Positions 13,635 through 17,847 of a stretch of 64,000 bases of DNA are shown one piece after another. Source of the stretch: an uncultured Candidatus Poseidoniales archaeon (GTDB lineage: Archaea > Thermoplasmatota > Poseidoniia > Poseidoniales > Thalassarchaeaceae); NCBI GenBank assembly GCA_905182515.1, contig CAJJBW010000008.1:62001-126000 (forward strand). Direction: 5' to 3'. The notes beneath the pieces were generated by a model. It searched no databases, was not told the DNA's origin, and was given only the letters and a program-made list of their open reading frames with translations. The position numbers were made by a program, and so were the translations under genes. Every line of letters begins with the position of its first letter. Position 1 is the stretch's first letter.

Positions 13635-14801
13635 ATGACCGATGAAGAAGAATTATTTACAATCAAAACAAATCATCTTGATTCAGGTATGAGAGGGATG
13701 CCAGTAGGGACTTGTCAAACATCTTACGTTGATCCATTGGAAGGAGTTCATTACGTTGGCTACCCAGTTGGGGATTTAGCAAATTTAGAAGAAGAAGATG
13801 TAGTCTTTCTCCTACTTCACAAACACCTGCCAACTCCAGAAGAATCTGAAGCATTCCGGGCCGAACTCACTCATAGAGCTGAAGAAATGCCAACAGGTGC
13901 ACTTAGAGTTCTAGAATCATTAACTCCAGGTAGTGGCCATCCTATGGATTGGCTATCAATAGGAATAATGGCTCTTGGTGCCGCTGAAACTACTGGCGAT
14001 GTAAAAATAGACTCTATGAATTTAATAGCTAGAATGCCTGAACTAATGGCCAGAATTTTTCTCCTTAGAGGAGGTAAGAAAGAAGAAATAAGGCCTAGAA
14101 AGCCTGAGTTAGGATTGGTTGAAAACTTTGTTCACATGCTAGGCGTTAATGGCGAAAAAGCAAAAAAAATGGAACGCGTCCTAAAATTCTTTTTCATTCT
14201 TCATATGGATCATGGAGGTGGCAACTTATCTACGTTCTCAGGAAAAGCAGTCGCCTCGGGCCGGGCATCTGTTTATGCATCTCTATCTAGTGCTATGAAT
14301 GCATTATCCGGTCCCCTGCATGGACGAGCAAACCAATCTTGTTTAGAATTCATTCAAAGAATTGGAACTTCAGATCATGCTAAAATAGAGAAATTCGTGC
14401 GTGCGGAATTAGCTGCCCGCCGTCCAATATATGGCTTTGGACATGGGGTATTGAGGGCCGAAGATCCACGTGCAAGGCTGTTAATTGAATTGGGTTCAGA
14501 AGTATGTCCAGAAGATTCAAACTTCAAAATAGCCAAATCATTAAGGGAAGTTGTTCCTAATATATTAAAAGAAATACCTAAAATAAGTAATCCTTATCCC
14601 AATGTAGATTTAGCAAGCGGGAGTCTTCTGCATTCAGTAGGCTTTAGAAAACCTGATTATTATACTACATTTTTTGGCTGGTCCAGAGTAGCAGGAATAT
14701 GTGCTCAAATAATGGATGAAAGAAATGCTAGAGATGGCCGCGGAACTCCAATTTATAGGCCTAAATATATAGCTAAAAATCAACCTCAAAGAAGGCTGTA
14801 A
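13635..14801 (+). CDS. gltA: citrate synthase family protein
   Basis: HMDHGGGNLSTF, GPLHGRANQ, YGFGHGVLRAEDPRA. Confidence 0.92.
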   Translation: MTDEEELFTIKTNHLDSGMRGMPVGTCQTSYVDPLEGVHYVGYPVGDLANLEEEDVVFLLLHKHLPTPEESEAFRAELTHRAEEMPTGALRVLESLTPGSGHPMDWLSIGIMALGAAETTGDVKIDSMNLIARMPELMARIFLLRGGKKEEIRPRKPELGLVENFVHMLGVNGEKAKKMERVLKFFFILHMDHGGGNLSTFSGKAVASGRASVYASLSSAMNALSGPLHGRANQSCLEFIQRIGTSDHAKIEKFVRAELAARRPIYGFGHGVLRAEDPRARLLIELGSEVCPEDSNFKIAKSLREVVPNILKEIPKISNPYPNVDLASGSLLHSVGFRKPDYYTTFFGWSRVAGICAQIMDERNARDGRGTPIYRPKYIAKNQPQRRL

Positions 14802-14802
14802 T

Positions 14803-15930
14803 TTAAGCACTATGGGTCTTTCCTGCCCCTCTATGGCCTATTATCCGTGGTACTTCCCAAGGTAAGCTAGTTGCAGAAGTTTCCTCTAATATGGTGTTCA
14901 AACTTCTCTCCCAAGACCACTTTTTCCTCCATTTTTCTATGAATAAATTTCTTTCTTGATCTGATAATTCATGCCATGGAGATATCTCATCTCTGAATTC
15001 CAAAAGAATAGATTCATGTTGTTCCTCTGGAACTGCATACAGTTCAGCCTTTTTTTCATCAGTCAATGGTTTAGTAGCAGGTTTTGTCCATCTCGGATAT
15101 CCATTTTTTAAAGTGGTCGAATAAGGGGATAAATTATCAGTTATCCCAGTAAGTCCGGCTTCTAATAGTAATCTTTCTATATCTGTGTCACAAGGCCATA
15201 CATATATCGGATATCCTCTTCTATACTTGTTTAATCTTTTCAATCTAGGGCCTTCAAGTCCGACAGATAATCCTAAATTTATTCTGCTTTCTATTCCTCT
15301 TAGATATTGTAGCGAACAAGGAAGCATAGGCGAACCTTCTTTACGTTGTTTATTTAATAATCTGGGTAAAGAACTTATTAAAAATGAAGGTGCAGCGGTT
15401 ATTCTTTGTGTCTTCCAATTCCCCCATTGTCGAATATAAGGTCTTAATCTACTAAATTTAAGTTTGCTATCAATTTGTTTTGCTGCTGAAATCAACTTAG
15501 GTTCAAAAGAATATATTATACTACTGCTTTCAGGGATATCGAGTGGGTCAAGGCTTTTTTCAATATATTGAATCATTTTTACCATGTGTTCTTTCCTATG
15601 TTTACCTCCTATCCAACCTCCTGCTTTACCGCTTGATGGATGAGGTGGTTTTAATTCAATGCATGCAAAAGCTCCCTCTTCAGTTAACCTTCTTATGAAG
15701 TGTGTATCATCTAACAAATCTTCTATCGGCCGGATAAAATTAGGTAATTCATCTAAAGTCATACATTCGGGATATTCTCCATTTTCAGTTTTTGAATCAT
15801 GATGTAATACTAAGTGATTATCTTTTGTCAACCTTAGGTCAAATTCTACTCCATCGCTAACCTGTATGCCATAGGATAAAGCCTCAATCGTATTTTCTCT
15901 AGGTTGACGCCACTCCCCTCCATCGTCCAT
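14803..15930 (-). CDS. glycerophosphodiester phosphodiesterase (GDPD) family protein, apparently circularly permuted
   Basis: N-terminus RENTIEALSYGIQVSDGVEFDLRLTKDNHLVLHHDS, central FACIELKPP and IIYSFEPKLISAAKQ, VWPCDTDIERLLLEAGLTGITDNLSPY; C-terminus PRIIGHRGAGKTHSA*. Confidence 0.88.
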   Translation of the reverse strand: MDDGGEWRQPRENTIEALSYGIQVSDGVEFDLRLTKDNHLVLHHDSKTENGEYPECMTLDELPNFIRPIEDLLDDTHFIRRLTEEGAFACIELKPPHPSSGKAGGWIGGKHRKEHMVKMIQYIEKSLDPLDIPESSSIIYSFEPKLISAAKQIDSKLKFSRLRPYIRQWGNWKTQRITAAPSFLISSLPRLLNKQRKEGSPMLPCSLQYLRGIESRINLGLSVGLEGPRLKRLNKYRRGYPIYVWPCDTDIERLLLEAGLTGITDNLSPYSTTLKNGYPRWTKPATKPLTDEKKAELYAVPEEQHESILLEFRDEISPWHELSDQERNLFIEKWRKKWSWERSLNTILEETSATSLPWEVPRIIGHRGAGKTHSA

Positions 15931-16032: not shown

Positions 16033-17847
16033 ATGTCAGGCACAATTGAACTAGACCGAGAATCAGACCCGCAAGCAGTAAGAGGATATGCATTTTATGA
16101 CTGGGGTAAATCTGCATTTGAGACAAGCGTCACTACAGCAATATTGCCGGTTTGGTTTGGTGTATTATTCTTAGAAGCAAATGGTCTCACCACAACGATT
16201 CTTGGTAAATCTATGTCCAGTGACGCAATTTGGTCATTTGCTGTTGCAGGAGCTGCACTCTTGGTGGCTCTTGTCAGTCCTTCATTGGGAGTAATTGCAG
16301 ATCGTCGTGCGATTAAGATATGGTGGTTAAAAATCCTAACTTACGTAGGGGCGGGGTCTACTTTCTTACTTTTTGCAGCGCCTTTCCTTCCTATTAGTAC
16401 TCAATGGATATGGTTGATGGTAATGTTTGTTTTAGCAAATATAGGTCTCAATGGTGCTGGCGTATTTTACAATGCTTTACTTCCTCATATGGGTAAAGAC
16501 GATGAAATGGACAGAATTTCTAATCTCGCATTTGCATATGGATATTTTGGTGGAGGTGTCCTGTTGGTAATTCATTTAGCCTTACTCACAATGACTGATT
16601 TTGCCGAATGGGCAACTCAATTTGCAATGGCATCTTCAGGATTGTGGTGGTATGGATTCGCTTTTTTAACATTTAAATGGGTCCCTGAACCACCGATTGA
16701 AAATGAGATGGAATCTTTAGGAATCAGAGAATCAGCATCTTTAGCATTTAGTGAAATCAAGAAAACTATTAGTGAGAGGAATAAATTCAGGACATTATTC
16801 ATTTACATGGTAGCATACTTTTTCTTTATTGATGGGATTAATACTGTCACAGCATTAGGGGGGATTTTTGGAACTATCGTTCTCGGAATCACTGCTTTTG
16901 ATTTGATGATAACAATTGTTGCAATTCAGTTTGTAGCTGCTCCATCTGCTATTTTATTTACAAGATTAGCCAAGAAGATAGGCACAAAAAAGGCGCTTAC
17001 AATGTCATTAGTTGGTTGGGTAGTTCTTTGTTTCGCTGCTCTATCTTTCGCACCATTAGAGTTAGAATCTCATGATGAATACCAGATACAATTTGACTGG
17101 GATGAGGAACAAAATGTGTATACTGTTCAAATGGCTGATGACAATGTTCCTCAATTAGCTCAGAAATTGCAATATGATGAATCTGAATTCAACGAACAAG
17201 CGTGGGCGAGAAAATGGAGTCGCTTTCTTCCTGTAGAAATTGATCATCGCAGCGATACTATGAAATGGACGTTTTATGAAACTAATTCTGACGGTGAAGA
17301 TGTAACTTACATAATGGCAATTCAAAACCCTAGTGTTTCAGATATTACTGCACTTCTCTCATCTATGGATGAATCTAGATTTAGTGCTAGCATTTCAGGC
17401 GGTAGTCTTGATTCCTCATCTAATATTGGTGTTGATCATCCAACAAGTCTTGGAGACGGTAAATTAGATGCTATACCAGAGGTTGCTAGAGATAAGGTAT
17501 GGCAGCCTCTAGGTCTAGCAGTAGGATTTCAATTCTTACTTTTGGGCTGTGCAATGGGGACCTTATTGGGTGGTTCTCAAGGACTTGCTCGTAGTATGTT
17601 TGGCCAAATTGTGCCCGAAACCAGAAGTGCTGAGTTCTTTGGTTTCTTTGGTTTCTTTGGAAAGGTCGCTGCTTTAATCGGGCCTCTACTTTATGGTACA
17701 TTGACTATAATGTATGATAGTCGTGTTGGAATACTTAGTATTTCAGTCTTAATTTTGATTGGAGCAGTTATGATGAGATTGGTCGACATTGATCAAGGTC
17801 GATTAGATGCCCAAGAAGAAGATGCACGTAATCGAGGATTAGTTTGA
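16033..17847 (+). CDS. MFS transporter, UMF1/Atg22-like family
   Basis: AVRGYAFYDWGKSAFETSVTTAILPVWFG; multiple TMs; non-TM insert in middle. Confidence 0.85.
   Translation: MSGTIELDRESDPQAVRGYAFYDWGKSAFETSVTTAILPVWFGVLFLEANGLTTTILGKSMSSDAIWSFAVAGAALLVALVSPSLGVIADRRAIKIWWLKILTYVGAGSTFLLFAAPFLPISTQWIWLMVMFVLANIGLNGAGVFYNALLPHMGKDDEMDRISNLAFAYGYFGGGVLLVIHLALLTMTDFAEWATQFAMASSGLWWYGFAFLTFKWVPEPPIENEMESLGIRESASLAFSEIKKTISERNKFRTLFIYMVAYFFFIDGINTVTALGGIFGTIVLGITAFDLMITIVAIQFVAAPSAILFTRLAKKIGTKKALTMSLVGWVVLCFAALSFAPLELESHDEYQIQFDWDEEQNVYTVQMADDNVPQLAQKLQYDESEFNEQAWARKWSRFLPVEIDHRSDTMKWTFYETNSDGEDVTYIMAIQNPSVSDITALLSSMDESRFSASISGGSLDSSSNIGVDHPTSLGDGKLDAIPEVARDKVWQPLGLAVGFQFLLLGCAMGTLLGGSQGLARSMFGQIVPETRSAEFFGFFGFFGKVAALIGPLLYGTLTIMYDSRVGILSISVLILIGAVMMRLVDIDQGRLDAQEEDARNRGLV

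Follow-up and report, generated by a model that had tools for sequence, protein, structure and literature searches.

We report a 375-aa protein, encoded at positions 14803 to 15930 on the minus strand of the window (the whole stretch of archaeal DNA analyzed, 64,000 nucleotides), that we hold with high confidence to be a natural circular permutant of glycerophosphodiester phosphodiesterase (GDPD). The identification rests on the open reading frame (ORF), the Pfam GDPD profile PF03009, and homologues across the order Poseidoniales; the activity, active-site geometry, substrate, and intramolecular packing of the protein are inferred. A circular permutation had been proposed in an earlier note on this DNA, and it remains the best reading in light of the conserved motif order, the invariant catalytic positions, the rejoined profile, and two AlphaFold2 models.

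Reading of the ORF bears out the unusual arrangement that the note had described. The protein begins with MDDGGEWRQPRENTIEAL, opening just ahead of the EN motif, keeps the later motifs in their normal order, and ends with PRIIGHRGAGKTHSA, so that HRG lies at the C-terminal end. The E-N-T motif (residues 12 to 14; 15889 to 15897, here and below on the minus strand) comes closely after HRG in canonical GDPDs but opens the protein in this ORF. It is followed by the metal-binding ExD on strand beta2 (E29 and D31; 15838 to 15846), the second catalytic histidine, H44, with D45 (15796 to 15801), the E-L-K motif on strand beta3 (metal ligand E92, and K94; 15649 to 15657), and the active-site tryptophan W245 on strand beta7 (15196 to 15198), a conserved residue described for GDPDs (PMC8016129). 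A folded helical linker is predicted at residues 270 to 362 (14845 to 15123), joining the old C terminus after beta8 to the old N terminus before beta1. The C-terminal strand beta1 and the start of the catalytic loop occupy residues 363 to 370 (IIGHRGAG; 14821 to 14844), with GHRG at residues 365 to 368 (14827 to 14838), seven residues short of the C-terminal end. The codon of the predicted catalytic His366 is at 14833 to 14835.

The match to PF03009 is significant (41.8 bits, above the cut-off of 23.6; E value, 1.8e-10) and aligns residues 9 to 49 with profile positions 8 to 48 of 244. Because the match begins at profile position 8, the front of the protein is without the first seven positions, which make up the HRG strand. 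A study of the Pyrococcus furiosus enzyme gives the GDPD family motif as HR(X)nEN(X)nEXD(X)nHD (PMC4926365). In the permuted protein the order is EN...EXD...HD...HR; the linear motif is not met, but the circular order is. Judged by its motifs, the protein is a permuted variant of PF03009 and not a canonical member.

Joining the C terminus to the N terminus restores the canonical order, as the note had anticipated. We placed the C-terminal strand ahead of residue 1 in four proteins and rescored them against PF03009. All four gained between 4.2 and 7.9 bits (41.8 to 49.7, 29.6 to 35.3, 54.6 to 58.8, and 36.5 to 44.1), and the match then began at profile position 1. The rejoined protein aligns through the join with 2OTD, which it also resembles in the residues ahead of beta1 (PWEVPRIIGHRGAGK in the permuted protein versus WPYPRIVAHRGGGK in 2OTD). 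Further, E29, D31, and H44 align with E44, D46, and H59 of the T. tengcongensis GDPD (2PZ0). A PDB profile search with the rejoined alignment gave no overall gain (2PZ0, 57.3 to 56.8 bits); this profile was built on 7 sequences versus 81 before, and the rejoined loop is longer than usual.

By protein search, 183 of the 194 Poseidoniales (marine group II archaea) genomes examined from across the order have a homologue; among those at least 90% complete, 31 of 34 do. We read the DNA of more than 80 homologous loci and compared motif order in 85 distinct protein sequences. All 85 start just before EN and carry HRG near the C terminus; a homologue with a normal N-terminal HRG, which would have pointed to a local assembly error, was not among them. 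The C-terminal motif is GHRG in 84 of the 85 sequences and CHRG in the remaining one, and its placement is not due to chance. Nearly all ORFs open with the pattern W.QP.EN[ST], at times slightly varied, and finish with PW...R.IGHRG.G and a short tail of 5 to 16 residues; at one locus (L015), the tail holds a second HRG (SHRG) in addition to IIGHRG. Between the Asp of beta8 and the His of beta1 there are, in the main, either 76 to 79 or about 100 residues, and the spacing ranges from 76 to 108 overall. Split-match loci in three genera (g2, g7, and g15) were considered as unpermuted candidates and rejected, because their motifs are in permuted order and their linker is shorter. An in-frame TGA in one genus, considered as a possible recoding event, is the protein's own stop codon, following ...GE[TN]H.

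The alignment of 81 sequences has invariant columns at N13, D26, E29, D31, H44, E55, E92, K94, F142, P164, W245, E252, G259, D265, R280, W319, R362, H366, R367, G368, and G370, with D45 nearly invariant. The GDPD active-site residues (E29, D31, H44, E92, K94, W245, H366, R367, and G368) are thus all invariant. Close pairs show dN/dS ratios of about 0.05 to 0.15 (dN, about 0.03 to 0.07; dS, about 0.23 to 1.4), and the purifying selection covers the last 60 codons as well.

AlphaFold2 modeled the window protein with high confidence (pLDDT, 94.4; pTM, 0.93). Predicted strands at residues 27 to 34, 88 to 93, 137 to 141, 159 to 161, 203 to 206, 242 to 247, and 261 to 264 correspond to beta2 through beta8 in the GDPD order, and residues 363 to 366 form a paired eighth strand at the C terminus. 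The linker is modeled as four helices with pLDDT values of about 95 to 98. Similarly, a distant short-linker orthologue from the other of the two Poseidoniales families was modeled (pLDDT, 95.4; pTM, 0.93) with a C-terminal strand at residues 320 to 323. DSSP calls a strand only where a segment pairs, indicating that the C-terminal segment of the model belongs to a sheet. That this strand sits between beta8 and beta2 is inferred without model coordinates, and AlphaFold2 may have placed a GDPD-like strand out of learned knowledge of the fold. The models do not refute the structural prediction made in the note: the C terminus is modeled as an ordered strand, and the proximity of HRG to the metal ligands is only inferred. 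The best solved structures in a Foldseek search are GDPDs, with TM scores by target of up to 0.72; the alignment is sequential and cannot use the moved strand. The expectation of a PLC-like TIM barrel is met at the level of the predicted model.

We propose that the old C terminus, after beta8, was joined to the old N terminus, before beta1, by the folded helical linker and that the new ends of the chain were made between HRG and EN, inside the catalytic beta1-alpha1 loop. Strand beta1 would then consist of the last residues and would close the TIM barrel between beta8 and beta2. His366 and Arg367 would thereby come to lie at the metal site (E29, D31, and E92), opposite His44, as in ordinary GDPDs. 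The P. furiosus study assigns the roles of general base and acid to His17 and His59 and metal binding to E44, D46, and a third Glu (PMC4926365). By analogy with the family, and in the absence of biochemical data, the permuted protein very likely hydrolyzes glycerophosphodiesters or lysophospholipids; glycerol phosphate (or lysophosphatidate) would be released by the standard two-histidine, metal-dependent mechanism. The protein is probably cytosolic, an inference from the lack of an N-terminal extension ahead of the barrel.

The cut in the catalytic loop could itself be functional, which we regard as unlikely but not negligible. The catalytic His and Arg lie about ten residues from the C terminus, so the enzyme might have to leave the ribosome and insert its last strand before it can act. 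Alternatively, the open loop might provide a wider or gated active site for larger lipid substrates, or strand exchange might act as a switch. Any benefit of the rearrangement is inferred. It is also conceivable, though improbable, that the protein is a dead or repurposed relative, for example a binding protein, that has kept the fold and the permutation. There are no assay data, the substrate is unknown, and overall identity to known GDPDs is low (about 12 to 22% in the Foldseek alignments); however, every catalytic and metal-binding position in the GDPD motif is unchanged throughout the 81-sequence alignment, which argues against loss of function.

Sequence data alone cannot distinguish intramolecular from intermolecular insertion of the last strand. 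In a strand-swapped oligomer, the C-terminal strand would complete the barrel of a neighboring subunit, and the protein would be active only as a dimer or ring; the span between beta8 and beta1, at 76 to 108 residues, is long enough to reach. We nevertheless give this arrangement little weight, since the monomer models pair the strand at high confidence and have an ordered linker, in the short-linker member too. Exchange of the strand between subunits, which the note had left as an option, is thus possible yet not needed, and packing within one chain remains an inference.

Circular permutations are usually proposed to arise through duplication and subsequent loss (PMC2213659), and the C-terminal HRG might be the idle start of a decaying second GDPD copy, with the true beta1 lost or otherwise supplied. 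This possibility, also raised in the note, fails on several counts and is very improbable: HRG does not vary across the order and is under purifying selection, in every protein the chain ends within the short tail past HRG without a remnant of EN, and neither a second EN segment nor a duplicate copy remains. A first-copy HRG is likewise missing upstream. There is an in-frame TAA two codons 5' of the ATG, as had been noted, and only 102 bp separate the start of the permuted GDPD from the divergent transporter gene at 16033, leaving no room for a hidden N-terminal part. The note had found no HRG-coding stretch in the 5' flank; across the loci scanned, within 400 bp upstream, in three frames, HRG was present at 8 of 106 loci, none of them in a GDPD-like strand context. 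Some of these loci are the same gene fetched twice, and a rough estimate puts the chance expectation at about 9; upstream HRG is no commoner than that. Although the genome is a 71% complete draft, mis-assembly, a frameshift, or a wrong start codon masking a normal N-terminal HRG deserves almost no credence, being refuted by the 85 concordant distinct sequences from separate assemblies, the divergent neighbor about 100 bp upstream, and the chance level of upstream HRG.

The permuted gene lies in a conserved context. Pfam matches identify a convergent citrate synthase gene abutting its 3' end (13635 to 14801, plus strand) and a divergent gene for an Atg22-like MFS transporter (16033 to 17847, plus strand); these are syntenic neighbors and not part of the enzyme. 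In both families, citrate synthase lies tail to tail with the GDPD at nearly all loci, with 8 to 106 bp between it and the point where the GDPD match stops. The transporter is head to head at most loci, about 80 to 490 bp upstream, in most of family f1 and some of f2. A gap of 1 bp separates the permuted GDPD gene from the citrate synthase gene in the window, and at four loci the two overlap tail to tail by 13 to 17 bp (L123, 479 to 1582; L124, 702 to 1715; L125, 703 to 1716; L126, 724 to 1815). In the transporter at 16033 to 17847, a soluble stretch of roughly 100 residues appears to be inserted between transmembrane segments. The conserved neighbors date the locus and give no pointer to the substrate. 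A tree places the two families on opposite sides of one branch (support, 99/97). A locus named Poseidoniaceae falls beside f2, from which we infer that f2 is probably Poseidoniaceae and f1 Thalassarchaeaceae. The shared synteny and the split of the tree into two families suggest that the permutation most likely arose before these Poseidoniales families diverged. For the ancestral permuted form we infer an origin before the split, through duplication and loss or through fusion.

Across 293 genomes of the phylum, best scores exceed 330 bits within the order and reach at most 40 bits outside it, and no permuted copy was found elsewhere in the phylum, suggesting that, on this sample, the permuted form is confined to Poseidoniales. 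A scan of a genome collection, which did not cover bacteria or other archaeal phyla in depth, returned only five relatives, all from the Poseidoniales group, and no viral relatives were found. A single match to the linker region came from outside the order, in another family of the same phylum (G338:C1:1546994-1547185; profile positions 272 to 340, 18.8 bits, in a 547-aa frame); it could be due to chance.

Canonical relatives occur close by. The sister order, which belongs to the same class, has GDPDs of about 235 aa with HRG in its usual N-terminal place, and Poseidoniales genomes themselves carry GDPD-like paralogues of about 200 aa and about 320 aa in canonical order. These paralogues and the sister-order GDPDs (L107 to L122) share the superfamily motifs of the permuted protein and come from the same or closely related organisms, but they have HRG or HRL at the N terminus and are without the linker. 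The paralogue of about 200 aa, present in several f1 genomes (L107 to L116; e.g., L107, L109, and L112), starts with GHRLGASGTKLENT and has a conserved KW[LF]FG[LFI] end. Its length is apparently insufficient for a complete barrel, and the late strands that carry the conserved Trp seem to be missing. The permuted protein resembles PF03009 GDPDs of solved structure (2PZ0, 2OTD, and 7E0V from P. furiosus) in its predicted TIM-barrel fold and in the HR, EN, ExD, HD, ExK, and Trp motifs. It differs from them in having the HRG first strand at the C terminus, in having the catalytic loop opened by its termini, and in bridging the old ends with a helical linker, which spans 76 to 108 residues from beta8 to the catalytic His.

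To our knowledge, only a few enzymes offer a well-supported natural circular permutation, and such cases are usually recognized between distant proteins. Among TIM barrels, transaldolase and class I aldolase are a natural permutant pair (PMC2213659), and glucosyltransferases and transaldolases are listed among natural permutants (PMC2395249); a circularly permuted GDPD was not found in the open-access literature, subscription papers being outside our scope. Like transaldolase and class I aldolase, the present case is a natural circular permutation of a barrel. Unlike that pair, it belongs to the GDPD superfamily, the cut lies inside the catalytic loop and parts the first catalytic His from the rest of the site, and unpermuted relatives share the same genomes. 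The permutation is fixed in one archaeal order, against a canonical sister order and same-order paralogues, which allows its age and origin to be bracketed. Motif annotation recognizes GDPD in only the first 41 residues and overlooks the catalytic histidine, and proteins of this kind could therefore be taken for truncated or dead enzymes. This protein probably has a role in phospholipid recycling in marine archaea. It offers a rare, testable natural circular permutation with new chain ends at the active site, and it puts to the test the tolerance of a TIM barrel for free ends there.
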